The notes beneath the pieces were generated by a model, which had not been told where the DNA came from, did not search any database, and saw only the letters and a program-made list of their open reading frames with translations. This document shows, piece after piece, positions 35,236 through 59,200 of a stretch of 64,000 bases of DNA. The stretch's first letter is position 1. Each line of letters opens with the position of its first letter. A program made the position numbers and the translations under genes. The stretch is from an uncultured Lachnospiraceae bacterium (GTDB lineage: Bacteria > Bacillota > Clostridia > Lachnospirales > Lachnospiraceae), in assembly GCA_946557105.1 (NCBI GenBank), contig CAMNSZ010000001.1, positions 124,001 to 188,000 on the forward strand. The letters are read 5' to 3'.

Positions 35236-36387
35236 TTAATAGCTGTCAATATCCGGATTGGTATAATGAATATATTCCTCTAGATCTATGTTGTCCAAAT
35301 CTTCCTCCTTTAGAATATTGTCGTCAATTTTAAAGTCTGCCTGAAATTGCAAATCAAATGTATCATTATGTCCGCAATCATACAGAAACTCTTCGTCCTC
35401 TGAATCCTCATACATGGGATTTCTCTCCACCACCGCAAATTCTGCATCCACCGAGAAATAAAATGTCACGTATCCCCTCAAATCCGAATCAAATTCCGAA
35501 ATGACGTCACTGATATAAATCGAGGTCTCATCCAACTGTAAATCCTCTCCCCAGCCTTCGCCATAATCCGACTCAAAATAAGTATTCAGCAGTTCGCTTT
35601 CCATATAATCCGACAGCATACATTGTTCAAAAAGAATATTATATAATTTCTCCTGCGTCTCAAACGAGGTAATGCCGGCAAAATATGCCTTAACCTTATC
35701 CTGAAGCCTTTCGATTTGCTCCTCACGCTGTTCCTCCCGCTCTCTCTCATACGTGTCAAGCAGCTCCCTGTTATGGACAAAAAATTCATCCAACCCGTTA
35801 TACAAATGAATCGCATCGCGCTGCTCGTCCGTCAGCTCCTGCAAAAGCTCTCTATGGAATAGATTTACATCATTTTCATCCGCAAAATCCTTACTGTTAT
35901 AAGTTATAAAGAAGAAATTATTGTCTGTTCCCTGCTCTTCTGCAAAGTCTATCAGAGAATACCAGATGATAGCATCCTGAAAAGAAAGCTTATTGACGTC
36001 AAAGGGCTTTTGATAGGCAAAATAGCGTTCCGATATCCTTTCCAGATAATCGCTATCCTGCGGATAGGGAATCACTTCAATCCCTTCCTCCTGTAAAAGT
36101 CGTGAAAACTCCTTCATATAGGCTTCTACTATCTGCTTTTTTCTGAGCTTGCCGGTCTCAATGCCGGGAATGCGGTATCTTATCACATCATTACCCACCT
36201 TTTTCACCGCATTAAGAACGCCTGCTATGCTATCTCCATACTTCTTGAGAATTTCATTATAGACAAACTGAGGTACGCAAACCTGACATTTTGAATAATG
36301 ATTCAGATATAACAGCTTTTTCCACGCTTTACTCTCCAGAAAAAAATCACCATAGACAATATTTGTATCAACAATAATATAATTCAT
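35236..36387 (-). CDS. PIN-domain ribonuclease-like protein (DUF4935-type)
   Basis: A 383-residue protein whose first 190 residues form a PIN domain. MNYIIVDTNIVYGDF carries the first catalytic Asp, FVYNEILKKYGDS the conserved Glu, SFQDAIIWYSLIDFA another Asp, and FFFITYNSKDFAD the last acidic site. The FITxNxxDF end is characteristic of DUF4935 proteins. A coiled, Glu/Arg-rich linker (TYEREREEQREEQIERLQDK) leads to a C-terminal acidic beta-rich domain of unknown role. GGGGGAGGTACAT before ATG 36387 fixes the start; a frame from 36435 is longer without support. It follows the SNF2 gene by 72 bases. RNA cleavage is inferred from the fold. Confidence 0.82.
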   Translation of the reverse strand: MNYIIVDTNIVYGDFFLESKAWKKLLYLNHYSKCQVCVPQFVYNEILKKYGDSIAGVLNAVKKVGNDVIRYRIPGIETGKLRKKQIVEAYMKEFSRLLQEEGIEVIPYPQDSDYLERISERYFAYQKPFDVNKLSFQDAIIWYSLIDFAEEQGTDNNFFFITYNSKDFADENDVNLFHRELLQELTDEQRDAIHLYNGLDEFFVHNRELLDTYEREREEQREEQIERLQDKVKAYFAGITSFETQEKLYNILFEQCMLSDYMESELLNTYFESDYGEGWGEDLQLDETSIYISDVISEFDSDLRGYVTFYFSVDAEFAVVERNPMYEDSEDEEFLYDCGHNDTFDLQFQADFKIDDNILKEEDLDNIDLEEYIHYTNPDIDSY

Positions 36388-36459
36388 ATGTACCTCCCCC
36401 TTATTCCCTAAATATATTTTTATATTACGTTTCACCTGCTTTTTACATAGATATAGGCG

Positions 36460-39400
36460 CTACATCTGCAGCAATTCCACAAGCTCTTCCTTACTCATAT
36501 TAACGATATTCCCGTTTTCACCGTTTAAGATTTCATCCGCCAGATTCTTCTTGGTCTCCTGCATATTTACTATTTTTTCCTCTATGGAGTTCTTAACAAT
36601 CAGCTTATACACCGTCACGGCTCTGGTCTGCCCGATTCTGTGCGCCCTGTCCGTGGCCTGATTCTGCACGGCAAAATTCCACCAAGGGTCATAATGGATA
36701 ACCACATCGGCGCCCACCAGATTCAGCCCGGTGCCGCCTGCCTTCAGGGAAATCAGGAAAACAGGAGTATCATCCCCGTTAAACCTATGCACCAGCTCCA
36801 GACGACCTTCCTTGGGCGTAGCGCCCGTAATCTTATAATAGGGGATTTTCTCGCGGTTCAAATCCTGCTCCAGCAACTCCAGCATAGAGGTAAACTGAGA
36901 GAATACAAGCATTTTATGCTCTCCCTCAATAGCGCTTCGGATTAAATCCATACAGGCCTCTCTTTTAGTGGACTCTCCGTCGTAATCCTCCATAAGAAGA
37001 GACGGGTCGCAGCAAATCTGCCTGATTTTTGTCAGCTCTGCCAAAATCTGCAGTTTATTTTTTCGGAAGCTTTCATCGCTTTGACCTTTTACCACCTCAA
37101 GCATATGCAGAACTTGTCCGTCGTATAACCTCTGCTGCTTCTCCTCCATCTTAGCGTAACGCACTTCTTCCAGCTTATCCGGTAAATCCTTCAACACATC
37201 CCTTTTCAGACGACGCAAAATAAAGGGCGCAACCATACGTCTTAAGCTTCTTGTCGCCTCCTCGTCTTTATTCTTTGTTATGGGAACCTCAAACTCCCTG
37301 CGGAAATCCTCGTAACCATACAAGAATCCGGGCATCAGGTAATCAAAAATACTCCATAGCTCGCTTAAACGGTTTTCAATGGGAGTACCGGTCAACGCAA
37401 ATCTGTTTCTGCTATGGATGACCTTGACAGACTTTGCCGCAGCGGTTCCATGATTTTTGATATACTGTCCCTCGTCTATGACCTGATAGAGGAACTCCTT
37501 GTCCTCATATTCGGCCACATCTCTTTTCAGCAAATCATAGGACGTCACCAAGACGTCATAGTTTTGATACTGCCTGATTTTCTCTTCCCGCTCCTGTCTC
37601 ATTCCCGTGACTGCGCATACAGAGAGGGCGGGTGCAAAACGAAGTATTTCCTCCTGCCAGTTATAAACCAAAGAGCTGGGAGAAACAATCAAGGAGGTTC
37701 CTGTTTTCCCCTCCTCCTTCGCCGCTAATAATACCGAAATCATCTGCAATGTTTTACCCAAGCCCATGTCGTCGGCGAGAATTCCGCCAAAACCATACCT
37801 CTCCAACGTGCGAAGCCACTTATATCCGAAAACCTGATAATTGCGCATAATTTGCTTTAAACTAAGCGGCACCTCAAACTCGGAGTCGTTTACCGTCTTA
37901 AATTCCTTCACCAGCATTTTAAAATGACGGTTCCTGTCGGCATATATGCTCTCGTTTTTTTCCAGCATCTTATCCAGATACAAGGCGCGATAAACGGGCA
38001 GCTGCATTTTACCCTTTACAAACTCCTTAGGCGAGACATGAAGCTTCTCCAGCATCACAGCCAACTCTTCAAAATTATCGTTCTCTATATTAAGGAAGTC
38101 TCCGTTTTTCAGTCTAAAATACTTTTTCCTGCTCTTATAACTATATAGAATATCCAGCAGTTCCCTCGTAGTCAGATCCTCTGACCCGACCGTCAGATTC
38201 ATAATATCATTCTCAACAGATACCCCTACGGACACCTTTGGCTGCTTGCGTATTCTCAGCCTCAAAAAACGGTCGGTGCTCTTCACATCCCCTAACTGTA
38301 AAAGCGCGTCCACACCGCTGTCCAACAGACGATAAATAATATCATCATTTCCGTCACAGTGAAGAAAATCCTGTTCTTTGTCCACGGCAGGAAAATACTC
38401 CTGCAAAATCGACAGCATTTCCCGCTCTCTGAATACATCCCTATAATCCTCCGAAGGCCTTTCCGAAGACTGCCAATCCAAAAGCGAAAATTCTTCATCT
38501 CCGTATCTTGCCTTCGCCTGACAGGTTACGTTTCCTTTTTCCGCATCCAGATAAAACACAAAGGAAACTTCCGGCGGAAGATACTCCTCTACATACCCGG
38601 CGTCCTTCTCGACGATATTCACACAATCACGCAGCAAGGGCAGAACCCGATAATAAAACTCCGAAAGATGCTTCCGCCCCACTGAAAAGGAAATTTTCCC
38701 TGCGTTTTGTGCATCCAATAACGGCGATATATCCCTTATCCTTTCCGGACTGATTCTGTTAAATGTCTCCCCCTGTAAGTAGTATAAATACTGCAAGCCT
38801 GCAATAAACTCCGGTGCCTTCCCCGACACATTAATACCGTGAAATATCCCTTTCTTGTCCACATCCTTACTGATTGTAAGCGAAAGCTTAATATCCTGCT
38901 GCTGAAAATAAAGCTTTTTATTCACAGAAGGAAGCTCGTCCTTATCGTTGAAGGTAACCTCAGTGCCCTCCGCAAGCTCATAAAGCTTATCCAGTCTCTC
39001 CCCATACATCAGAAGGCTACCCTTTATTTTTTCTCCCCCATTATCATAATTATGATATGTTCTCTCCACGGCATGATTTCGCTGTTGTTCGGCAAGAACA
39101 ATATTTTTTAAATAGTTATAATATCCCTGCGAAGCTTCCGAAAATCTGCAACCCGCAAAATTGATTTCCGACTTGCTTCCAAACGTCATGGAGCCGCCTT
39201 CTTCTATTGCCTGAACCAATTGAGGCAGATTTTTCACCACGAAAAGCTTGCCCGTGCCTATCCTGAAGGATAAATGCAAATTATCGTATTGCTTTTCCAG
39301 CCGGGGTTCCATGATAAGCTCCCTCTCTTGCGCTGCCTGCCTTTTCTCCAAACACTGACGGGCATATCTGCCGCGATAATTTGAAAGCAGGCTGCTGGCC

Positions 39401-40128
39401 GTCTGATCCGTGGAATCCCCTATATTGTTTTGCTCCAGATAATCCTTCAGCAGAAAAAGCAGCGCAACCTCATGGACACACAGCGTCTTTTCCAACGAAT
39501 AGCGCCCATAGTAATAGCTGTCATAGCTCCTGTTACATCCCGGAATTCGACACATCGCCTGCTTAATCTGACGTTTATCAAAAATAATGACCACCATATA
39601 ATATTCTTTTCCATGCGCCACGGCTCCGCGCACCACCCCTTGCATATTGGTGCTTTCAACATCGCTTACATATCCCGTATCTACCTTGAGCAGCTTCGCC
39701 TTTCCTGAATCTATCAAATCCTGAGCTTCCTTGCAGACTGTATCATAGAAAATAAATCCCGAAGTAATCTGTTCCAAATCAAAATAATGATATTTCTCTT
39801 GGGCTGCCTCCCTGTTCCCTTTAAAAGGGAAAATCTGCTTTATTTGTTTTACCTGCTGCTTCTGATTTGTTGTATACACTGCGTCAATGGCATATAATAC
39901 CGCCGCCATATGCTTACATCTTCTCCCGTCCTCGGCATATGGACAATCACAGTTGAGCTTAGGTCTTTTCTCATTAGACAGTTGTACCGTTACTCTATAA
40001 GAAACACTGCCTATTACATCGGCGCTAAAATCAAAACCGTCCTGCTTTAGGTTGCGTACCAAACCTCTTTTAAAATATTGTCTTCCACGATTTAATATCA
40101 TACTGTTAAAAAGATAATCCCACTTCAC
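36460..40128 (-). CDS. SWIM zinc-finger SNF2-family helicase/ATPase
   Basis: A 1222-residue Swi2/Snf2 translocase. An N-terminal SWIM zinc finger uses Cys60, Cys62, Cys71 and His73 (CDCPYAEDGRRCKH). The middle 600 residues match the bacterial SNF2-associated region. The ATPase core begins near 770: LADDMGLGKT (Walker A), VIDEGQYIKN (Walker B), ALTGTPIENRLSELW, and then the C-terminal helicase lobe with VFSQFTSMLELLEQDL, LKAGGTGLNLVGAD and DRAHRIGQTRAV. Such proteins remodel protein-DNA complexes, and some belong to defence systems. The start is GTG at 40128 with GGAGG nine bases upstream; the nearby ATG is out of frame. It lies downstream of hipBA and upstream of the PIN protein. Confidence 0.93.
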   Translation of the reverse strand: MKWDYLFNSMILNRGRQYFKRGLVRNLKQDGFDFSADVIGSVSYRVTVQLSNEKRPKLNCDCPYAEDGRRCKHMAAVLYAIDAVYTTNQKQQVKQIKQIFPFKGNREAAQEKYHYFDLEQITSGFIFYDTVCKEAQDLIDSGKAKLLKVDTGYVSDVESTNMQGVVRGAVAHGKEYYMVVIIFDKRQIKQAMCRIPGCNRSYDSYYYGRYSLEKTLCVHEVALLFLLKDYLEQNNIGDSTDQTASSLLSNYRGRYARQCLEKRQAAQERELIMEPRLEKQYDNLHLSFRIGTGKLFVVKNLPQLVQAIEEGGSMTFGSKSEINFAGCRFSEASQGYYNYLKNIVLAEQQRNHAVERTYHNYDNGGEKIKGSLLMYGERLDKLYELAEGTEVTFNDKDELPSVNKKLYFQQQDIKLSLTISKDVDKKGIFHGINVSGKAPEFIAGLQYLYYLQGETFNRISPERIRDISPLLDAQNAGKISFSVGRKHLSEFYYRVLPLLRDCVNIVEKDAGYVEEYLPPEVSFVFYLDAEKGNVTCQAKARYGDEEFSLLDWQSSERPSEDYRDVFREREMLSILQEYFPAVDKEQDFLHCDGNDDIIYRLLDSGVDALLQLGDVKSTDRFLRLRIRKQPKVSVGVSVENDIMNLTVGSEDLTTRELLDILYSYKSRKKYFRLKNGDFLNIENDNFEELAVMLEKLHVSPKEFVKGKMQLPVYRALYLDKMLEKNESIYADRNRHFKMLVKEFKTVNDSEFEVPLSLKQIMRNYQVFGYKWLRTLERYGFGGILADDMGLGKTLQMISVLLAAKEEGKTGTSLIVSPSSLVYNWQEEILRFAPALSVCAVTGMRQEREEKIRQYQNYDVLVTSYDLLKRDVAEYEDKEFLYQVIDEGQYIKNHGTAAAKSVKVIHSRNRFALTGTPIENRLSELWSIFDYLMPGFLYGYEDFRREFEVPITKNKDEEATRSLRRMVAPFILRRLKRDVLKDLPDKLEEVRYAKMEEKQQRLYDGQVLHMLEVVKGQSDESFRKNKLQILAELTKIRQICCDPSLLMEDYDGESTKREACMDLIRSAIEGEHKMLVFSQFTSMLELLEQDLNREKIPYYKITGATPKEGRLELVHRFNGDDTPVFLISLKAGGTGLNLVGADVVIHYDPWWNFAVQNQATDRAHRIGQTRAVTVYKLIVKNSIEEKIVNMQETKKNLADEILNGENGNIVNMSKEELVELLQM

Positions 40129-40227
40129 GAGCCATATCCTCCGTACATTTATGAAGCCATTTATGCTGTTTATAATATTGTATCACTATAACCAAATCCT
40201 TCAAAGCCTTTTGTCGCTTCCTGTTTA

Positions 40228-41607
40228 TCACTGCCTGTTTAATGTTCTGTACGCCTGCGGGCATTCGCTTATTGCCTGTTTTAAATTAGTCAATGGCATA
40301 GTATCCTCCATAAAGTTATCCATATGTCCGTGACAGCTCTTCACCTTCCGCATAATTTCTTCTCTCAGGCCTACATACTCCGCATATTTCTCCCAATTTC
40401 TCACTGTCGCTATAACATCCTTCATAATATTCTTTATTTTCTTGTCACTGATATTCATGCTTCTGCCACATGCATACATATCTTCGATTGTCAAATTATC
40501 GCGTTTCCCGTTTATCCTCATTTGGTGCTTTGACGTCCACATACTGTCCTGTCGATACGAAAATGTCATATCATACGCCGGTGCAAGCTTCCATATACCT
40601 TCCCTGTTCATCAGAAAAGTAATGTTTTTGACATGATCGTCATAATTTTTGGACACCTCGTTAAAAACCATTCTTCTGAACAGCTGTTCCACATCGCTTT
40701 GCGGGAGTTTGATTTTTCGCATAATCTGGGCCGCCTGCTCATAGCTGTTTGCGCCGGGTTCGTTAAAATCAAAATGCGCCATCCCTCCCAAGGTCTGCAT
40801 ATGAATCTTACGCCCGGTGTTATCATCTCTGTCAAAACGCTTGGTTACAAAATGCAAGCCCTCCTTACTTTTTATCAACCGACATTCCGTCATTTCTATT
40901 CCGGCGTCCTTGCACATTAGAGAGTAAGCATACTCAATCTGGGAATACCCTCCTTCATCTGCTGCCGCATCTTTATCCTTATTATTCTGCATCTCCCCAA
41001 ATTTAAGAAGCCAATAGGAATATCCGTCGCCGGCGTCAATTTGACCCGAACGGATGTGTCCTGATTCCATATTCCATGCGATGAGCGCTTTCGCCCTTGC
41101 CCCTCCTGCGGATGTACCAATCTTAATAAGCTGTTCAATTGCCTGCTCGTCAGTATCTATCTTAATTCCCTTTCTATCCGAAAGGATCTCGTCGGCAAGC
41201 TTCGCCAATTCGTCAATATCAACGGTCCGGTCCGGAATTCCCATACCCATTTGAGGAACATACTCCAAAGCTCCCATCCCTCTGCTTCCCACATAACATA
41301 ACCTCTCTACTGCGGTAAGCCCTTTCTCAAGACGTCCCCACCTTGCCAAATAGCTTTCAATAATACGCGTACCAAACTTATCCGGAAGAGAATCGGCCAA
41401 CAATCCCGGCAGCCCTTTAAAGGTCTCCTCCCTAAGCTCCGGGAAAGAATAGGTTTGAAGCGACAAGGGCATAGTCACAGGCGAAACCTCAATGCCGCTT
41501 CTCACAAAACCTTTGTCATAAGAAAAATATGGAAGGCTTGCAACATCTTGCTGCACTACCGTACCTATTTTGGTTCCCCACAAATATACCTCTGTTCCGA
41601 TTTGCAT
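40228..41607 (-). CDS. hipA: HipA-family serine/threonine kinase toxin
   Basis: A 459-residue protein. The N-terminal subdomain has the HipA pattern (VYLWGTKIGTVVQ, then FKGLPGLLADSLPDKFGTRII). Gly-rich SAGGARAKALIAW at 166-178 corresponds to the nucleotide-binding loop, and Lys202 lies in YWLLKF. The catalytic segment NYDDHVKNITFL (321-332) supplies Asp and Asn, and PAYDMTFS with Asp346 binds metal. All kinase elements look intact. In known systems HipA phosphorylates glutamyl-tRNA synthetase or other targets and is held by HipB. ATG 41607 overlaps the hipB stop by one base (TAATG), so the pair is translationally coupled. Confidence 0.9.
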   Translation of the reverse strand: MQIGTEVYLWGTKIGTVVQQDVASLPYFSYDKGFVRSGIEVSPVTMPLSLQTYSFPELREETFKGLPGLLADSLPDKFGTRIIESYLARWGRLEKGLTAVERLCYVGSRGMGALEYVPQMGMGIPDRTVDIDELAKLADEILSDRKGIKIDTDEQAIEQLIKIGTSAGGARAKALIAWNMESGHIRSGQIDAGDGYSYWLLKFGEMQNNKDKDAAADEGGYSQIEYAYSLMCKDAGIEMTECRLIKSKEGLHFVTKRFDRDDNTGRKIHMQTLGGMAHFDFNEPGANSYEQAAQIMRKIKLPQSDVEQLFRRMVFNEVSKNYDDHVKNITFLMNREGIWKLAPAYDMTFSYRQDSMWTSKHQMRINGKRDNLTIEDMYACGRSMNISDKKIKNIMKDVIATVRNWEKYAEYVGLREEIMRKVKSCHGHMDNFMEDTMPLTNLKQAISECPQAYRTLNRQ

Positions 41608-41948
41608 TACTCTTCATCTCCCCATTTCCATTCCTGCCTGCCGGCTCTCTTTGTTTTTGATACTCTCTGACGCTTCGGCTTATCCTTAAACAATTCCTCC
41701 AGTGTAGGAAGCTGCTCCGGAATCAAAATATTGAAATTTTGCAAAAGCTCCAATATCCGCATTATCTTCATGAAATTTTCTATATTCACGCCCTCGCCGT
41801 TTTCAATTCTGACTACGGTGCTAAATGACACCCCTGCGTTTCGAGCCAGCTCTTTTTGGGTCATGGAGCGCCTTATTCGTATCTCCTTTATTCTCTTTCC
41901 AAGCTCCTGTAAAATAAATTCATTGTTTTCATCTCCTGCTATTTTCAT
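41607..41948 (-). CDS. hipB: HipB-like helix-turn-helix antitoxin
   Basis: A 113-residue protein with an N-terminal XRE/Cro helix-turn-helix: LGKRIKEIRIRRSMTQKELARNAGVSFSTVVRIENGEG. A helical linker follows, then a basic tail (PKRQRVSKTKRAGRQEWKWG) that may enter the HipA pocket or contact DNA. I start at ATG 41948, preceded by GGCGGGTGAT; ATG 41990 would add 14 residues containing CKRCG and lies at the putative operator. It should bind the palindrome at 41994-42013 and repress hipBA. Confidence 0.85.
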   Translation of the reverse strand: MKIAGDENNEFILQELGKRIKEIRIRRSMTQKELARNAGVSFSTVVRIENGEGVNIENFMKIMRILELLQNFNILIPEQLPTLEELFKDKPKRQRVSKTKRAGRQEWKWGDEE

Positions 41949-41993
41949 ATCACCCGCCACTCCACAGCGTTTACATACTTCCGCTGTCAATTA

Positions 41994-46143: not shown

Positions 46144-46710
46144 TTACCTAATCTTACATATCAGGGGATTAGGCGGAATCTCCCGTTCAATACGATAATA
46201 TTTCCCCCTAAAAAAATATAACTTAGTACTTAGCGTACTGTCGTTTGCCAATGTATCTTTCGCATTAATCCTTTCACGAATTCTCTGATATTCCTCAAAT
46301 TTTCCTAGTGCCAGCGCTTTCTTATAAGAGGTTGTCACCAGATACAGCTTCACATCTCTATATTTATATCTATCATTCAAAAAAATATCTTTAAACTCTT
46401 CTTTCATAAATTGCTCTATCGTATTGGTGAATTTTTCCTGAATTGCCTTCGTGCCGGTGGTTCTTTTTATTCCTTTGAATTCCAAGATGTATAATGCATA
46501 CCAGTCGCATTCACAATCCACTGCCACAATAAAGTCCACAGCCTTGGGGATAATCCTAAGATGCTTACCCGCATAATAGTCATCTACTTTGATTCCTATA
46601 TATTCCGCATCGGTTAAATCAGAAGAAACATTTACCCTGACTCCCTCGTCTTCAATATCTCTATGTAAGCAGTTCTTTAGTCTTTTCTCCCTTGTAATCG
46701 CAGTAATCAT
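46144..46710 (-). CDS. Putative PD-(D/E)XK-like nuclease of the ATPase cassette
   Basis: A 188-residue protein. The segment KAVDFIVAVDCECDWYALY followed by ILEFKGIK places Asp59, Glu77 and Lys79 in the order and spacing of a PD-(D/E)XK active site. A helix (TKAIQEKFTNTIEQFMKEEF) follows, then a strand (VKLYLVTTSYKK). It has no visible sequence similarity to the nuclease-like protein at 5526, although the gene order (ATPase then nuclease) is the same. It starts four bases after the ATPase stop, with GGGAGAA in the ATPase end as ribosome binding site. It is probably the effector of the module. Catalytic activity is inferred from the motif only. Confidence 0.62.
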   Translation of the reverse strand: MITAITREKRLKNCLHRDIEDEGVRVNVSSDLTDAEYIGIKVDDYYAGKHLRIIPKAVDFIVAVDCECDWYALYILEFKGIKRTTGTKAIQEKFTNTIEQFMKEEFKDIFLNDRYKYRDVKLYLVTTSYKKALALGKFEEYQRIRERINAKDTLANDSTLSTKLYFFRGKYYRIEREIPPNPLICKIR

Positions 46711-46714
46711 TTAC

Positions 46715-48145
46715 TTATTCATTCTCCCCTTGTGCTTCCATGATGCTCTCAATGATTTCTTCCCTCTCGTCCATCAACTGAGCCGAAACATCCGCGAAAT
46801 TTTCATCATCCACGCCCAAATCGTCTATATGCATAAATACAGACACGCTCTTTCTCCCTTTTTTACTGAGCAGAATCGGGCTGTAGCATTCTTTATCCAG
46901 CTTTTTTGCCAATACCAGATTATTCAGCTGATTAAAAATGTAATTGCTATGCGACGCTAAAATCAAAATAACATTCTGATCCGTCAGCTTAGCAAACGCC
47001 TTGATTAAGGAAATTTGATTGCTCGGATGAAGGTGCGCCTCAGGTTCTTCAATAAAAATAATTGACTTAGGCTGTTCATTCTGCCCTACCGTCCTCTTTA
47101 ATTGTTGAGTCATTCCTCTCTCTACAATATATTTTAAAAATGCCGTAATGGGCGATATTTCCGACACCATGGAAGAAGTATCCCGCATCTCCAATTGAAC
47201 GCTTTCCTCGAACGGTCTGTATAGGATTGCCTTACTCTTTCTATCAAACGACACCTCCCCTTTCAGCACACTTTTTTCAATTTCTTCCGCATGCTCGGAG
47301 AAATGCCCCTGTGTATCGCCGCGTATCTCTGAAAGCATCATATAATAATCCGAAATTGGTTCAGGAATACTTGGAATCTGAATAGAGCCTCTGATATATG
47401 TCCTGTTTTGGGAAAGCTGCGCCAAAATCGGCGCAAAAGAACTCATCCCGGTATATATACCCGATCTGGAAGCAGGCAGAAAATATACATTTTTAATATT
47501 CCTTAATATTTGAACCGCAAATTCCCGCTGCATCTTATTGATTTCTTCTTCCAGCAGTTCAATAGGCGTATTAATACGGTTTTTGCCATACACATAAATA
47601 TCTAATTGTTCCTTACCGTTTCTTGACTTATGGAATTCCGACATCGTTTTCCGCAGTCTGGTGGGCTTCCTCTCCATACTAAAAAGAATTTTCTCATTTT
47701 GGAAGTCAAAAACGCAACGAATCCTATTATCAATCTCCAGAATGATTTGCGGGTTGTCCTCCCGCATACTCTCATAGGTGCCAAACGTATTCTCAAAGGC
47801 GTCCGACAACATGGGAAATAAGTCTTGTGCCAATCTTTTTGCACATATTTCTTCCATCTTACTACTGATGTCCTCTACTTCCAAGTCGGCATTTTGGGAA
47901 AAATTCATAACTACCTGTACTTCCGGTACCTTTGCATCTTTTTCAACTCCCAAATAAAAGTAGCTCATTCTATAAGTGCGTGCTATCCTTTTAGAATATA
48001 TCAACAGATATTTCAAAATTAAATATGTCACCTGCATGGCATAAGACTTTCCTATGTTATTATTTCCATAGGTCACAATCATGTTTTTTGACAAGTCATA
48101 TTCAAATTTCCTAATTGGCCCCCAGTTTTGCAATATTACCCGCAT
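46715..48145 (-). CDS. AAA/ABC-type ATPase of the cassette between capE and capF
   Basis: A 476-residue SMC/RecF-like ATPase. Walker A GNNNIGKSY is at 27-35, a signature-like SSMVSEISPI at 324-333, Walker B IIFIEEPEAHLHP at 362-374 and the switch histidine in ASHSNYIF at 397-404. The YFLPASRSGIY segment at 221-231 is a conserved feature of several defence-associated ATPases. No TOPRIM or nuclease domain is fused. After the histidine come 70 residues with an acidic end (DDLGVDDENFADVS). Translation is coupled to the zinc-ribbon gene upstream: TAGGAGAGTAAAATG holds the stop, the ribosome binding site and the start within fifteen bases. Confidence 0.87.
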   Translation of the reverse strand: MRVILQNWGPIRKFEYDLSKNMIVTYGNNNIGKSYAMQVTYLILKYLLIYSKRIARTYRMSYFYLGVEKDAKVPEVQVVMNFSQNADLEVEDISSKMEEICAKRLAQDLFPMLSDAFENTFGTYESMREDNPQIILEIDNRIRCVFDFQNEKILFSMERKPTRLRKTMSEFHKSRNGKEQLDIYVYGKNRINTPIELLEEEINKMQREFAVQILRNIKNVYFLPASRSGIYTGMSSFAPILAQLSQNRTYIRGSIQIPSIPEPISDYYMMLSEIRGDTQGHFSEHAEEIEKSVLKGEVSFDRKSKAILYRPFEESVQLEMRDTSSMVSEISPITAFLKYIVERGMTQQLKRTVGQNEQPKSIIFIEEPEAHLHPSNQISLIKAFAKLTDQNVILILASHSNYIFNQLNNLVLAKKLDKECYSPILLSKKGRKSVSVFMHIDDLGVDDENFADVSAQLMDEREEIIESIMEAQGENE

Positions 48146-48154
48146 TTTACTCTC

Positions 48155-48457
48155 CTACAAATCATAAAATTCTATATTCGGCTTCTCAAGCGTACTTTTC
48201 CCTGAAGCATCCCCCTCGATTGTCACTTTACTATTCTCTAATGTTCCCTCCGGATATTCCGACGCATACAGCTTCGCAGCTATTACATTGCCACATTTTT
48301 CGCACACCACCTGTACATCACTTTCATAATAGCTGTTCAAACCCATATCCTTTTCATAGGAATGCACCCAGTCTAAGTCCCACTCGACCTCCAGCTTCGC
48401 CCCGCATTTTCCGCATGTTCCTTCCGATTTCGTTACAATAATCATTTCATGCCCCAT
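48155..48457 (-). CDS. Small zinc-ribbon protein of the ATPase cassette
   Basis: A 100-residue protein with two CxxC pairs, Cys15/Cys18 (GTCGKCGAKLEVEW) and Cys52/Cys55 (VVCEKCGNVIAAKL), forming a probable four-cysteine zinc ribbon. The second half is hydrophilic and ends in KPNIEFYDL. The family is not one I recognise. A zinc ribbon leading an ATPase/nuclease unit suggests a nucleic-acid or protein sensor. The first ATG (48457) has AGGA almost touching it; the second ATG (48445, MIIVTKSEGT) has better spacing from GGGG and could be the true start. It is the first gene of the cassette and has its own promoter. Confidence 0.72.
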   Translation of the reverse strand: MGHEMIIVTKSEGTCGKCGAKLEVEWDLDWVHSYEKDMGLNSYYESDVQVVCEKCGNVIAAKLYASEYPEGTLENSKVTIEGDASGKSTLEKPNIEFYDL

Positions 48458-49810: not shown

Positions 49811-50503
49811 CTATATCTGTTTTTTGCAGACAGCAGAGATAATGTATCTGTTATGCTCTTTCACAAATCTGTCAAAAACGGAATCTATTGTGCCAAAGAC
49901 CTCTGCCAGAAAGGTCTTGCGTCCAAACACTCCCAATATGCCGTATGTGGCATAGGTAAAGCTTTTGAAACGGGTCGCCAATTCCTTTGCCTCTTCAATG
50001 GTAATATATCTCCAAGAGGTTCCCCATTTTGCAAATTTTTTGCGCGCCCATTGATGAAGCGGACTTGCCACCAGATTTTCTGCAAAGTAAAGGGTTCCGC
50101 CATTCTTTAACCCTTCATAAATATTCTCAAACATTAACTGTTGGTTGTGATAATTGTTGTTCCAGCCGACTCCCCCCATTACGGACTTAAATACTACAAT
50201 ATCAAATTCCTGTTTATAAGACATCTTGGTAACATCTAACTGCTCATATCTGATTTTATCACAAACTCCCCATTTCTCAAAATTTTGTCGTGCTTCCGCC
50301 TCTCTGTCTAACGTTAAATCCGTACAGTAAACATCCGCCCCTTTTAAGGCGAAAAACACTGACAATCCTCCGCCTCCCCCGCCGATATCCAACACCTTTT
50401 TCCCTGACAAATCGTCGGGCAGGTCTTTTTCCCAGAGAGACATAGCCCTGCTCCAATTCTTTATATCCCATTGTACCACGGACTTTTTGATTGCTTTTTC
50501 CAT
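49811..50503 (-). CDS. SAM-dependent methyltransferase of the Dlt-like cassette
   Basis: A 230-residue class I methyltransferase. Motif I is KKVLDIGGGGGGLSVFFALKG near 35-55, the ribose-binding Asp lies in VYCTDLTLD, and motif IV is FDIVVFKSVMGGVG. The C-terminal third is helical and basic (QWARKKFAKWGTSW). It is the last gene of the compact cassette, 37 bases after the acyl carrier protein, with GAGGATATTATTT before ATG. The substrate is unknown; it could methylate the carrier-bound acyl group, the released ester or the polysaccharide. Placement with ligase, carrier protein and formyltransferase points to one decoration pathway. Confidence 0.83.
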   Translation of the reverse strand: MEKAIKKSVVQWDIKNWSRAMSLWEKDLPDDLSGKKVLDIGGGGGGLSVFFALKGADVYCTDLTLDREAEARQNFEKWGVCDKIRYEQLDVTKMSYKQEFDIVVFKSVMGGVGWNNNYHNQQLMFENIYEGLKNGGTLYFAENLVASPLHQWARKKFAKWGTSWRYITIEEAKELATRFKSFTYATYGILGVFGRKTFLAEVFGTIDSVFDRFVKEHNRYIISAVCKKQI

Positions 50504-50540
50504 AAATAATATCCTCTTTCCTTTTAAATAAAAATAAATA

Positions 50541-50765
50541 CTACAAGAGCATTCTTATCAGCTCAATAATCCTATCCTTATTGCCGAAATATTTTTCCAC
50601 CACATAGGAGGCGTCGATTTCTATATCAAAGGCATCCTCCAGCTCACCGATAATATTTATCAATTCAAAGGAATTTACTAAACCGTCCTTTAACATATTG
50701 TTCCCTGTGTATTCGGGAAGCTCCTCATTAACCTCTTCCAAAATCTTTAAAATTTTCTCTTCCAT
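50541..50765 (-). CDS. Acyl/peptidyl carrier protein (DltC-like)
   Basis: A 74-residue acidic carrier protein predicted to form a four-helix bundle. The phosphopantetheine serine lies in DGLVNSFELINII near residue 32, at the start of helix II; the flanking Asn-Ser-Phe replaces the usual Asp-Ser-Leu. AAGGAGTAAATGGG precedes ATG. It starts five bases after the formyltransferase stop. Its size and context, next to a DltA-like ligase and MBOAT, indicate it carries an activated amino or other carboxylic acid as a thioester for transfer to a cell-surface polymer. Confidence 0.88.
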   Translation of the reverse strand: MEEKILKILEEVNEELPEYTGNNMLKDGLVNSFELINIIGELEDAFDIEIDASYVVEKYFGNKDRIIELIRMLL

Positions 50766-50770
50766 CCCAT

Positions 50771-51646
50771 TTACTCCTTCGCTTTATATTTTAACAATAA
50801 ATCCGTCTGTTCATCAAGGCTCATGACTATTTGCGCGTCCGAAACGAATATCCCTCTCTCGTCCTCCGACCTTGGTACCGGTTTATATCGGGTAATTTCC
50901 ACCGTCCTCCCGTCAGGCAGCTGCGTAACCGCTCTGCCAAAAGGACCGAATTTGCCGTAATCCATAGCGCGCAATAGTCTATAGATGTCTTCCGCCGAAT
51001 CCTCCAGCGAAAACCTTCCCGCCCCCGGCACCTCATAAGAATAATACATTTTTCTTTGGCACACATTTTGTGCCGTTCCCGGAACCTCTCTATTCAGCAT
51101 ATCCTCCGCAAAGCTTTCCAAGCCCTGCTGCGCCAGCTCCATAATTCTCTGCGTAAGCTCATAAGCCCTTGTATGCTTATTTATGGAACATTTCCCCTGC
51201 CAGATAATCCTGCCGGCGTCAACATCCGAAGTGACAAAATGCCAGGTCGCCCCGCTTTCCTTCTCGTTATAATAAATAGCCCAGCTTGGGGCGTTTCTTC
51301 CCGGATATTTGGGAAGCAGCGCGTTATGAAAATTTGTGACCGTCAAATTCTCCTTATCCACTACCTTCTTGGGGAAAATATAATAATTTCCGGCGCTGAC
51401 GACCCATGTCTTTTTCAATACATTCGTCAAAAAGGCGGTTACTCCCTCCCTTTCAAAAAGACTTAGGATGGGAATCTGCTCCTCCCTGCAGATACCCTCT
51501 GCCGCATTTAAGCCCTGCGTCTCATGACAGATATACAGCAAGTCAAAAGAATATTTTTCTTTCAGCCGCGCCATATACAAAAGCACCGTACATACAATAT
51601 TACCGCACCCTATGACAATAACCTGTTCAAACCTACAGCTTCCCAT
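50771..51646 (-). CDS. Formyltransferase (Fmt-like) in a Dlt-like cassette
   Basis: A 291-residue enzyme of the formyltetrahydrofolate-dependent transferase fold. The catalytic triad is visible: Asn105 and His107 in NFHNALLPKYPGRNAPSWAI, and Asp143 in TSDVDAGRIIW. The N-terminus (QVIVIGCGNIVCTVLLYM) forms the Rossmann part, and a C-terminal OB-like portion has DGRTVEITRYKPV. Members formylate Met-tRNA, amino sugars or, in some peptide synthetases, carrier-bound amino acids. The start is ATG 51646, sharing a base with the ligase stop (TGATG); GTG 51649 is possible. Placement between ligase and carrier protein favours aminoacyl-carrier formylation, but a 4-amino sugar is an alternative substrate. 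Confidence 0.82.
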   Translation of the reverse strand: MGSCRFEQVIVIGCGNIVCTVLLYMARLKEKYSFDLLYICHETQGLNAAEGICREEQIPILSLFEREGVTAFLTNVLKKTWVVSAGNYYIFPKKVVDKENLTVTNFHNALLPKYPGRNAPSWAIYYNEKESGATWHFVTSDVDAGRIIWQGKCSINKHTRAYELTQRIMELAQQGLESFAEDMLNREVPGTAQNVCQRKMYYSYEVPGAGRFSLEDSAEDIYRLLRAMDYGKFGPFGRAVTQLPDGRTVEITRYKPVPRSEDERGIFVSDAQIVMSLDEQTDLLLKYKAKE

Positions 51647-53169
51647 CACAATAAATCCTTCAAAGCCTTTCTGTCAATTTTACCGTTGGCATTTAAAGGC
51701 ATCACCGGAATACTTTTTACCTTATTTGGCAGCATATATTTAGGAATCAGCCTCTCAAGCCTTTCGTTTATCTCGTTCCTTGAAAATTCCGCTTCTGCTT
51801 CAATATACATGACAATACTTTGTCTCTTATCGTCATACACACAGCAGCATCTGGGAATTTCGTCAAAGGAGGAGGCTGCCGTTTCTATTTCTCCCAGTTC
51901 TATCCTGTGTCCCAAATGCTTAATCTGGTAATCCTTTCTTCCAATGTAAATCAGCTCTTGGCATTCATTGTAGGAAACCAAGTCTCCCGTCCTGTAAATC
52001 CTCTCATCAAAACAGTGGTTCAGAGGATTTTGAACAAAAGCCTCCTTTGTTTTTTCCGGATTTTTATAGTAGCCTACGGCTAAACAAGTACCTTTAACAC
52101 ATAATTCGCCTATTTTCCCCTGTTCATGGGAGGTAACCAAACAATCCCGTTCATCCAATACCAAGATTTCGGTATTTTTCATAGGTTTCCCAATGGGCAG
52201 AGACTCCTCGTCGCCGAATTCCCTGTCCACCACATAAAATGTGCAGGCATCCGTTATTTCCGTAGGTCCGTAAAGATTGGCATACAAGACGTCCGGAAGA
52301 TATTTTCTCCAATAATTGAGCTGCTTATTGGGCATTACCTCCCCACAGAAAAGCACTCTCTTTAAAGTATCTGATAAATCTACATTTTTCAAAGCACGGA
52401 GCTTTGCAACCGTTATCAGCGCCGAGGGAACCCAAAAAATGGAATTGACGCCCCACTCTTTCATATACTCCAATAGCAAAACCGGTTGGGAAAACAAGTC
52501 CTTTGGTATAATATTCAATACCGCTCCCGTCTTTACAGTAGAGTAAATATCCAGTATGGAATTGTCAAAATAGAAAGGCGCCTGACTGCCAAAGGAATCC
52601 TCTTTAGTCACCTCGAATTCCTCCGTGACCCATTCAATGTAATCGACCACACTGCGATGGCTGATTGCCACTCCCTTCGGCACTCCTGTAGAGCCTGACG
52701 TAAATAGCACATATAAGAGGTCCGTATCGATAATCTTCCCTGCAGTCTCCCAAACTATTTTTTCGTCATCCTCTAAGGGTTCTATGTCCTCATACAATAA
52801 ATATCCGCCCTCATATTCAAATTTTTCAAATTGGGTTTTTAATTCTTTCGTGGTGATGACAATCTCCGGCTTTAATATCTCCAATATTTTGTTGACTCTG
52901 CCCGCGGGCATCTCCACGTCAATGGGCGAATAAAAATTCTTACTGTATGCAGCTCCTATAAAAGAGAACAGCATTACGGCTCCTTTTTCTAAATATACCG
53001 CCACCGGCTTCTGAACGCCGATTTTCTTCTCTATCAGCGCTCTTGCTATCGCCAGACTCCTCCTTCTGTATTCCTCATAAGAGAACTTATTCCCTTTATC
53101 AATAATCGCCGTCTTATGAGGATACTTCTCCCACGTCTTGTCCAGCCATTCCGTAACACTAGCCTGCAT
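51646..53169 (-). CDS. DltA-like adenylating ligase
   Basis: A 507-residue ANL-superfamily ligase that activates a carboxylic acid with ATP and loads a carrier protein. Core motifs: TSGSTGVPKG (157-166), QAPFYFDNSILDIY (196-209), FCGEVMP (274-280), NLYGPTEITDACT (298-310), YRTGDL (392-397), GRKDYQIKHLGHRIELGEIE (410-429) and NANGKIDRK with the catalytic Lys497. The match to DltA is strong, including the Cys275 of FCGE, which aligns with the cysteine implicated in D-alanine choice in DltA. The substrate is therefore probably D-alanine or a close relative. AGGAGGTTGCAGGT precedes ATG. It follows the MBOAT gene by 12 bases. Confidence 0.9.
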   Translation of the reverse strand: MQASVTEWLDKTWEKYPHKTAIIDKGNKFSYEEYRRRSLAIARALIEKKIGVQKPVAVYLEKGAVMLFSFIGAAYSKNFYSPIDVEMPAGRVNKILEILKPEIVITTKELKTQFEKFEYEGGYLLYEDIEPLEDDEKIVWETAGKIIDTDLLYVLFTSGSTGVPKGVAISHRSVVDYIEWVTEEFEVTKEDSFGSQAPFYFDNSILDIYSTVKTGAVLNIIPKDLFSQPVLLLEYMKEWGVNSIFWVPSALITVAKLRALKNVDLSDTLKRVLFCGEVMPNKQLNYWRKYLPDVLYANLYGPTEITDACTFYVVDREFGDEESLPIGKPMKNTEILVLDERDCLVTSHEQGKIGELCVKGTCLAVGYYKNPEKTKEAFVQNPLNHCFDERIYRTGDLVSYNECQELIYIGRKDYQIKHLGHRIELGEIETAASSFDEIPRCCCVYDDKRQSIVMYIEAEAEFSRNEINERLERLIPKYMLPNKVKSIPVMPLNANGKIDRKALKDLL

Positions 53170-53181
53170 ACCTGCAACCTC

Positions 53182-54753
53182 CTAATAAAAAGCATACATA
53201 AACGTATCCGCTACATTTTCCGAACCAAATCTGCCAAATAATAAAATCATAAAAATCAATAAATAAAGCACGCTCCACCTGACAAGGATATTTCTCCGCA
53301 ATAAGAGTTCTACAATGTTTTCCCCCTTTTGCAAAACCCTGTTCTGCAAAAAATCCGCCAGAAACAAAATACACAAGCCTATCAAAATGACTCCGATTTC
53401 CGTTATGGTCAAGCCCGCGCCCGACAACAGACTGCCAATCTGCCAATGCCCCCAGTTATTGTTCATACACTTATGTACCGTTTCGACTATCAATATTCTC
53501 AACGCAGACATGGAGCCCGGCGCAACTATCGCTATCCCGACACAGTAAATGAAAAAGGTTCTTATGGTTTGGAACAGCCTAAAAGGCAGGTTATCCTCAC
53601 GAATTTTGCACTTATCCCTGATTCCTTGAAACCAATTCTCCAAAATACCGGAGATAATAATGATTCCTCCCCAGTAGCAGCCCCAAAGCAAATAATCCAT
53701 ACCCGTTCCATGCCACAGCCCCGTGAGAATCCAAACTACCGCAGACGGCAGCGCCGTTCCCAAAATCCGGGCAGCTCTTGTTTTATGGTTTTTTCTAAGC
53801 TTTCTGGTCCTCTTTTTTAACCAAGAAGCGTTTGCTATGGGCATGTAAATATAATCTCTGAACCATAGACCCAATGTAATATGCCATCTTCTCCAAAACT
53901 CGGCGGCGCCTTTGGAGAAAAACGGACAGGCAAAATTTTTGTCCAGCTCAATACCGATTATGCCTGAAATGCCCGAAACCATATCCATACACCCTGAGAA
54001 ATCGGCATACAATTGAATTGCATAAAGCACAATGGCTAAAACGATCTGCAATAGAGTAAAATCTGCGACCTGACCGAATATCCGAGTCGTATACAGGCTC
54101 AACGTGTCCGCAAGCACAAGCTTCTTAAACAATCCCCATATTATGAAACACAGCCCCTTAGACATTCTGTCATAGGAAAATCCAGGCAGGTTCTCCACCT
54201 GCTTCAGCAATCTTTCATACCTGCCGATAGGGCCCTGTATAATATGAGGGAAATAACTGACACACAAAAAGAATTTAAAAAAATTACGCTCGGGAAATAC
54301 TCTGCCTTCATATATATCTATCAAATACCCCACTATGGAGAGGGTATAATACGACAATCCTATGGGCACAATCAAAAACCCCGCCGCTGCCTGCATAAAA
54401 TACCTGCCAAGCTTCACATAGACAAGTACTCCCACAATCAATAAAAGGCTCGCCAGCAATAACGGAAAATTCTTTCTTTTGTAGCCTGAAAATAACTTTA
54501 CCTGCTGTGGAACCTCCAACCCTTCAGCTTCCGGATAATAATTTTCATATTTCTTTTGAAGCATCAGAGAGCTTCCGTACGCAATAATACTCGTCAATAA
54601 TAAAATGATAAATCCATTGATTCCTGAAGCTAAATAGAACAAGCAATTTCCCAAGAGAATACATACCTGCTTCCCTTTCGTTCCGGGTACTATAAAATAT
54701 ATTATAAAAAAAGCAAAAAGAAATAATATAAATTTAACCGATACATATGTCAT
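53182..54753 (-). CDS. MBOAT O-acyltransferase (DltB/AlgI family)
   Basis: A 523-residue membrane-bound O-acyltransferase with about 11 helices. Signature regions are YFPHIIQGPIGRYERL, YADFSGCMDMVSGISGIIGI, EFWRRWHITLGLWFRDYIYMP and LTGLWHGTGMDYLLWG, where the second histidine is the catalytic one in DltB. It should take the acyl group from the carrier protein at the cytoplasmic face and pass it across the membrane to a polysaccharide hydroxyl or an external relay protein. The start is ATG 54753 with a weak ribosome binding site. It is the first gene of the cassette and lies 48 bases after the UDP-glucose dehydrogenase. Confidence 0.92.
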   Translation of the reverse strand: MTYVSVKFILFLFAFFIIYFIVPGTKGKQVCILLGNCLFYLASGINGFIILLLTSIIAYGSSLMLQKKYENYYPEAEGLEVPQQVKLFSGYKRKNFPLLLASLLLIVGVLVYVKLGRYFMQAAAGFLIVPIGLSYYTLSIVGYLIDIYEGRVFPERNFFKFFLCVSYFPHIIQGPIGRYERLLKQVENLPGFSYDRMSKGLCFIIWGLFKKLVLADTLSLYTTRIFGQVADFTLLQIVLAIVLYAIQLYADFSGCMDMVSGISGIIGIELDKNFACPFFSKGAAEFWRRWHITLGLWFRDYIYMPIANASWLKKRTRKLRKNHKTRAARILGTALPSAVVWILTGLWHGTGMDYLLWGCYWGGIIIISGILENWFQGIRDKCKIREDNLPFRLFQTIRTFFIYCVGIAIVAPGSMSALRILIVETVHKCMNNNWGHWQIGSLLSGAGLTITEIGVILIGLCILFLADFLQNRVLQKGENIVELLLRRNILVRWSVLYLLIFMILLFGRFGSENVADTFMYAFY

Positions 54754-57907: not shown

Positions 57908-59200
57908 TTATTCCAGTAAAACTTCTTTACGGTTAATCTTTTCAAAATCCAGAGTTGCCTCAATAACAAGAGTTCCGAATATTCCTTCCTGTATATTAAT
58001 GACATTATTTTGAGAATATTCCTGAAGTACTGTTTCTTCCCCCTCCCAAACAATACTAACCTTATATTTAACATGTTCTCCGTTAGTCAATGGCGTCAGA
58101 GTCAATAAAGCCCCCTCCTCCTGCCGTGTAATAAGATAATTGACTCCAAAAATACGTTTGTCCATACGCCTTAGCTTTTCCTCACAGGAATCGTAAAAGA
58201 TATCCGTTTCCAGCTCTCCTGCAAAAAACCGCGCGAATACCTCCGTAAAAATATCTGCGCCTACGCCGCTTAAATGATTATCGTTAAAATAGTAGCTGTC
58301 TAAATTAGGAAAAACCGTCTCTTTACATAAATTAAAATCGTAAAATTCCGTTCCGTAGGGCCTCAGGAATTCTCGAACCTGTTCTATATAAGCGTCATAA
58401 TTTCCCGTACTCGCCAAACGGTAATTACTTATAGGAGCGCAAAAAAACACCAGCCTTATGTTTTCCCGCGCACAAAAATCAATGATTTTTTTCAGATACT
58501 TAATTGTATCATCCGACATCTGTTTTTCCGCTATGGGTTCATAAAAGCTTCTTTCGCCAAAGGAACCTTCCTCAACACTCTGCGCATACGCCACATAACC
58601 CTTCCCCACATAATACTCAGATTCATTGTCGATTGGCGTATAGTTTTTATATGCATCCGTCTGCTTTTTCTTCACTATATCAATACACTTCCGGATACTG
58701 AATTCTTCCCTTCTTGCAGGAAAAAGAAAATGAATCCAATTTTCACAATCTGTAGTATTCAGCAGAAACTGTGCTTTGTTCAAAGAAGGCTTCATATAGT
58801 CATATATAATATATTTGGAAGTCATCCATTTTTCCACATCCCGGGAACGGGGAACCACGCTATGACTCAGCTCGATAAACACGGTAGATAAGGTGTTCGT
58901 TTTAGCCGCCTCCACCAGCATGGTGTAGGTTCCGTCATAATATTGCGAGGCGGAACCGGCGTTAAATGTATTCATATGAAGAATGTCGTCCACAATATAG
59001 GGGTTTACTCCCCGATTACACAGAGACGCCCCTATAAATAAAGCGTCTATATTTTCCGAACCATTATAAAGCTCGTGAAAACTCAAACGGGTATAGGAAT
59101 TGCTGTCGTCCGCCAAAATATAATTAAGCGCATGGGCAATGATACAAAATATCAAAACAAAGGCTGTTGTTCTACCCAAATAAATTAATTTACGCTGCAT
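57908..59200 (-). CDS. Membrane-anchored SGNH-like protein (DltD/AlgX-type)
   Basis: A 430-residue protein with one N-terminal membrane helix (TTAFVLIFCIIAHALNYIL, about 11-29) and an external SGNH hydrolase-like domain. Ser59 lies in LFIGASLCNRGVNP, and the Asp307/His309 pair in FNDNHLSGVGAD. Other fold segments include VFIELSHSVVP and RLVFFCAPISNY. The last 80 residues form a beta-rich accessory domain. Proteins of this layout (DltD, AlgX-like) relay acyl groups from an MBOAT partner to a polymer, and the MBOAT/ligase/carrier genes lie 3-8 kb downstream in the same transcription direction. AAAAGAGGCTAGCG precedes ATG. Partnership with that cassette is inferred. Confidence 0.78.
   Translation of the reverse strand: MQRKLIYLGRTTAFVLIFCIIAHALNYILADDSNSYTRLSFHELYNGSENIDALFIGASLCNRGVNPYIVDDILHMNTFNAGSASQYYDGTYTMLVEAAKTNTLSTVFIELSHSVVPRSRDVEKWMTSKYIIYDYMKPSLNKAQFLLNTTDCENWIHFLFPARREEFSIRKCIDIVKKKQTDAYKNYTPIDNESEYYVGKGYVAYAQSVEEGSFGERSFYEPIAEKQMSDDTIKYLKKIIDFCARENIRLVFFCAPISNYRLASTGNYDAYIEQVREFLRPYGTEFYDFNLCKETVFPNLDSYYFNDNHLSGVGADIFTEVFARFFAGELETDIFYDSCEEKLRRMDKRIFGVNYLITRQEEGALLTLTPLTNGEHVKYKVSIVWEGEETVLQEYSQNNVINIQEGIFGTLVIEATLDFEKINRKEVLLE

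Follow-up and report, generated by a model that had tools for sequence, protein, structure and literature searches.

In the Dlt pathway, which places D-alanyl esters on a polymer, the membrane-bound O-acyltransferase (MBOAT) DltB is fed by the carrier protein DltC and has His336 in its active site, according to the accessible part of PMC11035591. The accessible part of PMC12148441 describes how a motif tyrosine of the O-acetyltransferase PatA becomes acetylated and hands the group to PatB, and places the motif tyrosine of Dlt on a separate protein, DltX. Formylation (F) domains of nonribosomal peptide synthetases (NRPSs), as presented in the accessible part of PMC8949500, formylate an amino acid that is already on a carrier. 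Here we describe a gene cassette resembling all three systems, located on the minus strand at 49811..54753 of a 64,000-nucleotide stretch of an uncultured Lachnospiraceae genome (assembly GCA_946557105.1, contig CAMNSZ010000001.1, positions 124,001 to 188,000), hereafter called the window. It is probably a Dlt-like system for aminoacyl decoration into which a step of N-formylation has been inserted, so that an N-formyl-aminoacyl group would be passed via an MBOAT and an SGNH-type protein to an exopolysaccharide (EPS).

A preliminary description of this DNA had listed five adjacent minus-strand genes, and all five open reading frames (ORFs) were confirmed at their positions, with the transcription order MBOAT, ligase, formyltransferase, carrier and methyltransferase. 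The MBOAT (523 aa, 53182..54753) matches the Pfam MBOAT profile with an E-value of 1.2e-12 and scores 166.1 bits against DltB (TIGR04091, cut-off 375). It is followed by an amino-acid adenylating ligase of the DltA/NRPS adenylation (A) domain type (507 aa, 51646..53169; Pfam AMP-binding, E = 2.4e-66) and by the formyltransferase (50771..51649; Formyl_trans_N, E = 1.7e-18), which comprises 292 aa from a GTG at 51649 or 291 aa from an ATG at 51646. The carrier protein (74 aa, 50541..50765) scores 29.9 bits against DltC (PRK05087, cut-off 68), and a methyltransferase dependent on S-adenosylmethionine (49811..50503; Pfam Methyltransf_25, E = 1.4e-10) comes last. The tight junctions reported earlier were reproduced: 12 bases between the MBOAT and ligase genes, an overlap of ligase and formyltransferase genes (TGATG, within GTGATG), and 5 bases before the carrier gene, with 37 bases between carrier and methyltransferase.

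A pattern search with a five-sequence formyltransferase alignment in a genome collection said to cover 84,980 species yielded 180 candidate stretches, of which 77 were confirmed as loci. The 33 loci nearer to the window formyltransferase (39–49% identity) are referred to as type I, or close, and the other 44 as distant. Linkage was counted on the same strand within a fixed distance of the formyltransferase gene (1.2 kb for the ligase, 2.5 kb for the carrier and 5 kb for the MBOAT), and by this count ligase, formyltransferase, carrier and MBOAT genes lie together on one strand in 49 of the 77 loci. Among type I loci, 32 had the ligase, 33 the carrier, 31 the MBOAT and 30 all three; the corresponding counts for the distant loci were 31, 26, 19 and 19, with two fused loci (L081 and L082) extra. 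The ligase gene lies at most 300 bases from the formyltransferase gene in 63 of the 77 loci, plus three in which the two are fused. Part of the missing genes is explained by contig ends (e.g., L054, L059 and L068). Where the formyltransferase stands apart from the ligase (L069, L073 and L098), a ligase is present elsewhere in all three genomes, and the five genomes with a ligase–formyltransferase pair and no MBOAT nearby (L086, L087, L093, L094 and L095) all have MBOATs elsewhere.

The gene order for which the preliminary description had suggested searching, ligase–formyltransferase–carrier–MBOAT, was found in 44 of the 49 four-gene loci; the window's own order, MBOAT–ligase–formyltransferase–carrier, was found in two (L026 and L072), and other orders in three. 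Pairwise distances of formyltransferases and ligases were correlated with a Spearman coefficient of 0.88 (50 sets including the window; 0.91 within the 31 type I sets and 0.49 in the remaining 19), and those of formyltransferases and MBOATs with 0.74 overall, 0.94 in type I and 0.50 in the rest, the pairs not being independent in either comparison. The linkage of ligase, formyltransferase, carrier and MBOAT is not due to chance, and on this comparative evidence four of the five genes are a conserved unit. The fifth stands apart: no methyltransferase homologue was found in the 77 loci, and the only match at E ≤ 1e-3 beyond the protein itself was a weak one (3e-04) to the window ORF 4443-5372. 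The methyltransferase is probably a neighbour and not a part of the conserved cassette, and the suggested methylation was rejected as a pathway step on the basis of its absence from all 77 loci.

The distribution of the cassette is sparse. At E ≤ 1e-30, the window formyltransferase alone had matches in 7 of the 250 family genomes, one of them the window genome; of the other six, three have ligase, formyltransferase, carrier and MBOAT genes adjacent, one has an MBOAT, an SGNH gene and a WbuX-like gene close by, in one, genes for ligase, carrier and ketosynthase lie within 8 kb, and in one the match lies near ligase- and carrier-like genes that were assigned partly by eye. A 46-row formyltransferase profile run against 392 genomes of the order at E ≤ 1e-45 gave three matches, namely the window itself, genome G108 (with the ketosynthase-type locus L017) and one within a 5381-aa ORF. 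No second MBOAT cassette passed this strict threshold in the 392 genomes, nor was there a match at E ≤ 1e-45 in the 10 same-genus genomes listed. Such rare and patchy occurrence suggests horizontal movement.

The catalytic Asn-His-Asp triad of the formyltransferase, noted earlier as intact, corresponds to N106, H108 and D144 and is kept in 71 of 71 aligned sequences (the window and 70 loci, with fused and NRPS rows left out of the alignment). In L081 and L082, ligase and formyltransferase share a single stop-free ORF of 804 and 792 aa, respectively, followed by carrier, MBOAT, SGNH and WbuX genes; in a whole-genome search, the open frames without stops measured 808 and 796 aa. The L082 fusion places the ligase at about 3–500 and the formyltransferase at about 510–785, and a third ligase–formyltransferase fusion (L096, 716 aa) is truncated by a contig end. 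In a tree of 86 rows, which contained no VioF- or PseJ-type row and in which long branches were flagged, the formyltransferases of the window and 73 loci formed one clade (support 98/93), outside which fell E. coli ArnA, Fmt and PurN together with four F domains of NRPSs and, from type I clusters, five second formyltransferases resembling ArnA. The join of this clade to the NRPS F domains was weakly supported (83/37), with long branches. The second, ArnA-like formyltransferase (306 aa; L041:1329-2249 and homologues) is distinct from the cassette enzyme and occurs in 23 of the 33 type I loci.

Searching 369 genomes from the proteobacterial class of G657 (locus L102) with the formyltransferase profile gave 24 matches in 20 genomes. 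Thirteen of these lie in an ORF that also encodes an A domain (in one case scoring weakly, 3e-04), and every one of the thirteen is among the 15 strongest; the remaining two of the 15 lie in a 577-aa ORF and in one of 2763 aa that is truncated at the edge of its sequence stretch. The nine weakest matches lie in ORFs of 313–350 or 672–711 aa, the sizes of Fmt and ArnA, without an A domain. Plasmid searches were mixed in outcome. The L018 formyltransferase matched 90 records, the 15 listed being NRPS/adenylation proteins and hypothetical or unannotated proteins. The window formyltransferase matched 235 records, most frequently from Pantoea (93), and the 30 listed comprised NRPS/adenylation proteins, MupA/Atu3671 monooxygenases, ArnA, Fmt and others. 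The conserved linkage, the ligase–formyltransferase fusions, the separate clade and the fusions with A domains in the G657 class support the assignment of the formyltransferase to a carrier-bound aminoacyl pathway, as the preliminary description had proposed for this Dlt-like cassette.

The ligase scored 334.5 bits against TIGR01733 (cut-off 317.4) and 320.9 bits against the DltA equivalog TIGR01734 (cut-off 559.85), and no other place in the host genome scored above it with the DltA profile. Its pocket is formed by D202, N203, L206, F245, L273, C275, L299, D307 and A308; K497 is kept in 64 of 64 sequences and D202 in 63 of them, the remaining one showing an X. As given in the accessible part of PMC11253843, DltA contacts the amino group through D197, G295 and V301 and the D-methyl group through L198 and C269, while in AlmE the counterpart of L198 is L248 and the other key residue is C316. 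A motif alignment places D202, N203, C275 and D307 at the positions of DltA D197, L198, C269 and V301. The Asp and the Cys gate of the D-Ala pocket are kept, with Asn at the place of L198 and Asp at that of V301; Asn, Cys and Asp occupy the L198, C269 and V301 places in all 33 type I ligases, window included. The cysteine of the FCGE motif, on which the earlier suggestion of D-alanine had drawn, is present, but the case for D-alanine is weakened, as two DltA contact positions differ in all 33 close ligases.

The close-group pocket code DNLFLCLDA is exact in 31 of the 33 ligases, including that of the window (L044 has one X and L056 one L to M change). In the main distant group (27 ligases), the L198 position is occupied by Val and the Cys position by Ser, the code DVKIMSLCN being exact in 24 of 27 and off at one or two places in the other three; the ligases of L060, L062, L065 and L091 have Ala at the Cys position. 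We know of no pocket code that matches DNLFLCLDA or DVKIMSLCN. Judged by these residues, the substrate is likely an amino acid with a free amine, D-selectivity is plausible, and the Asn and Asp of the pocket would accommodate a small polar side chain, e.g., D-Ser. Since the ligase keeps the amine-binding Asp (D202 at the D197 place), it should take the un-formylated amino acid, with formylation following activation.

The carrier has no match in Pfam; its Ser32, kept in 60 of 60 aligned sequences, is expected to bear phosphopantetheine. In the MBOAT, H348 and H291 are kept in 51 of 51 sequences, window included, and His348, within GLWHG, is taken as catalytic by motif. The window MBOAT ends in the acyl-shuttle motif FMYAFY (FxYxxF/Y), its last residue being Tyr, with Phe in most relatives. 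A C-terminal F-x-Y-x-x-F/Y motif was found in the MBOATs of 47 of 50 relatives; of the three without it, the L046 and L061 ORFs reach a contig end and the L070 MBOAT is split. Among the type I loci with an MBOAT near the formyltransferase, 30 of 31 show the motif and the other is cut by a contig end.

This motif and a proposed DltD/PatB-like partner, an SGNH-type protein of 430 aa (57908..59200, minus strand), had both been overlooked. The protein is related (E down to 3e-29) to SGNH genes located downstream of the MBOAT in distant cassettes. Its G57, S59 and H309 are invariant in 18 aligned sequences, and S59 and H309 fit SGNH blocks I and V; searches of Pfam and NCBIfam gave no match for it. 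A 356-aa protein occurs in 29 of the 33 type I loci; on inspection by eye it resembles DltD (motifs of the Gly-x-Ser and Asp-x-x-His types), and it had no Pfam match over cut-off.

The presence of the enzymes, their intact catalytic residues and their linkage follow from sequence and comparison, and from these we infer the amino acid, the acceptor and each of the following chemical steps. The ligase would activate, at the cost of ATP, a small amino acid whose amine is free (D-Ser, D-Ala and Gly being candidates as far as the pocket indicates) and, by analogy with its family, load it onto the Ser32-phosphopantetheine of the carrier. The formyltransferase would then formylate the amino group of this carrier-bound amino acid, with N10-formyl-tetrahydrofolate as the donor. 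The MBOAT would accept the N-formyl-aminoacyl group from the carrier on the Tyr of its own C-terminal FMYAFY, outside the membrane, from where the SGNH protein would pass it via its own Ser to a polysaccharide hydroxyl. The acceptor would be the product of the same Wzx/Wzy cluster, and the result a neutral N-formyl-aminoacyl ester.

The cassette is embedded in a co-directional run of EPS genes on the minus strand: Wzx-like (62928-61678), acyltransferase-3 (61651-60605), Wzy-like (60547-59252), SGNH, hexapeptide acetyltransferase, epimerase-like and UGDH, then the MBOAT; past the carrier, the run continues with the methyltransferase and an FnlA-like gene. From the SGNH gene to the methyltransferase gene, the spacings are, in order, 62, 41, 21, 48 and 12 bases, the overlap, 5 and 37 bases. 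The host genome assembly comprises 2.74 Mb in 26 contigs and is 92% complete. Window stretches 35236-41990 and 46144-48457, also among EPS genes, encode an SNF2 helicase, a PIN-domain protein, HipA with a helix-turn-helix (HTH) partner, and an AAA_15 ATPase next to a protein of 188 aa; these genes are possible defence or mobile cargo.

Several observations weigh against the proposed pathway and are best considered together with the rival explanations. The top PDB match of the formyltransferase in a single-sequence phmmer search was GDP-4-amino-4,6-dideoxymannose formyltransferase (6.8e-13), with LgrA at 3.6e-7. A PseC-type aminotransferase (DegT) at 33876-35069, about 15 kb from the cassette, scored 460.8 bits (cut-off 423.5), and with it an amino-sugar substrate could exist in the host. 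ArnA and Fmt were also among the 30 listed plasmid records. The formyltransferase might accordingly N-formylate a nucleotide-linked 4-amino sugar for the EPS, with the Dlt-like genes independently attaching a plain amino acid. We regard this explanation, and the narrower one raised earlier in which the enzyme acts only on a UDP-4-amino sugar, as unlikely: homologues of the aminotransferase are present in only 4 of the 77 loci, one of them weak, the linkage and the ligase–formyltransferase fusions tie the enzyme to the ligase, and its clade leaves out ArnA, Fmt and the ArnA-like second formyltransferase of the close clusters. An ordinary Dlt system, with a D-alanyl ester on the polymer and a formyltransferase whose function is lost or unrelated, is very improbable. 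Ligase, carrier and MBOAT do match the DltA, DltC and DltB profiles and the Cys gate is kept, but the formyltransferase triad is intact in every aligned sequence, including those from loci labelled as other phyla, and the pocket departs from DltA at the two contact positions throughout the close group. Membership of classic Dlt was itself rejected, as the DltA, DltB and DltC cut-offs were not reached.

It is also rather improbable, though less so than an ordinary Dlt system, that the N-formyl-aminoacyl group made on the carrier is amide-linked to an amino sugar, or enters a small secreted molecule or lipid, with no polysaccharide ester formed. The accessible part of PMC10059132 reports an N-formyl-L-alanyl group in V. 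anguillarum O2, which agrees with this explanation and is a chemical precedent for the N-formyl-aminoacyl group as such. In 7 of the 77 loci (L059, L060, L062, L065, L068, L089 and L091), as well as in L017, related formyltransferases are accompanied by ketosynthase-III-like genes, and six of the seven are without an MBOAT in the stretch examined (L091 has one elsewhere in the locus, at 1430-2998), so the formyltransferase family is not bound to MBOAT transfer. Most of these eight loci have carrier or ligase genes, and their product may be a different acyl or N-formyl-aminoacyl compound. The use of the formyltransferase, ligase and carrier group with ketosynthases fits a carrier role and not a fixed tie to polymer acylation. 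Against an amide or small-molecule product, an MBOAT lies near the formyltransferase in 31 of the 33 close loci, nearly all (30 of 31) with the acyl-shuttle motif of polymer O-acylation, and glycosyltransferase-like genes occur in 29 of the 33. Three further points count against the formylating Dlt-like pathway as proposed. The SGNH gene lies upstream in the same direction and is not adjacent, three genes separating it from the MBOAT; the 356-aa gene of the close loci is absent from the window; and the host genome has two genes of the sulfatase family, which includes LtaS, such that lipoteichoic acid may be an alternative acceptor.

Related loci vary this theme. A WbuX-like PP-loop amidotransferase joins the cassette in one formyltransferase subclade, in 15 of 20 loci (L061, L064, L067, L069, L071, L073, L075, L077, L079, L081, L082, L083, L085, L092 and L098) and in none of the 57 others; the subclade was picked after this association had been seen, so that its Fisher p is post hoc. 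Mapped on the formyltransferase tree, the WbuX label needs 2 changes, compared with a shuffled mean of 13.8. Three tested proteins scored 145–178 bits against TIGR03573, under the cut-off of 203, and no WbuX-like match was found in the window genome. The protein could convert N-formyl to N-formimidoyl, and the resulting amidine would carry a positive charge. We tentatively put forward a family of capped Dlt systems that place N-modified aminoacyl esters on surface polysaccharides, N-formyl in the window's group and N-formimidoyl in the WbuX-bearing sister group, although we hold this extension to be the less probable outcome. L074 (5224-19082) and L080 contain two adjoining gene sets for an SGNH protein, ligase, carrier and MBOAT, only one of which has a formyltransferase; they allow the formylated version to be compared with a plain one in a natural setting.

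If the proposed pathway is correct, Dlt machinery has been put to a different use, mainly in Lachnospiraceae. Dlt alters surface charge through a free amine, and the formyl-capped version would instead give a neutral amide-bearing ester. Such a version would connect carrier formylation of the NRPS kind to the O-acylation of polymers and bring one-carbon metabolism into envelope decoration, and it would imply a new surface polysaccharide substituent. N-formyl groups are bacterial signals for host receptors, and a surface N-formyl-aminoacyl group may matter to the host as well. In the literature searched, which covered few subscription journals, we found no description of a Dlt-like cassette with a formyltransferase and no report of N-formyl- or N-formimidoyl-aminoacyl polysaccharide esters.

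Among known systems, AlmEFG lipid A glycylation is similar in that a Dlt-like ligase and carrier supply a surface glycolipid, but it is a Gram-negative system and, to our knowledge, includes neither a formyltransferase nor an MBOAT. Formylating NRPS initiation modules such as LgrA likewise unite formyltransferase, adenylation and carrier functions and formylate on the carrier (PMC8949500, accessible part), whereas the cassette proteins are separate, are fused as A-F and not F-A in three relatives, and come without a condensation domain, their product presumably going to the MBOAT. With the PatA/PatB-type MBOAT–SGNH O-acetyltransferases, as described in the accessible part of PMC12148441, the cassette shares the C-terminal FxYxxF motif and the SGNH partner; the donor would be an aminoacyl carrier protein instead of acetyl-CoA. 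With Dlt (DltA, DltC, DltB, DltD and DltX), the cassette has in common an adenylating ligase and small carrier, a carrier-fed MBOAT and an SGNH partner. The cassette differs from it in having a formyltransferase gene between ligase and carrier, in scores under the Dlt equivalog cut-offs for ligase, carrier and MBOAT, in an acyl-shuttle motif on the MBOAT itself and not on a DltX, in having two DltA contact positions taken by Asn and Asp and in its location within an EPS cluster. The parts and the carrier-to-polymer logic are already known from Dlt, Pat and NRPS systems, and it is the joining of Dlt-like transfer with a formyltransferase that appears to be new.

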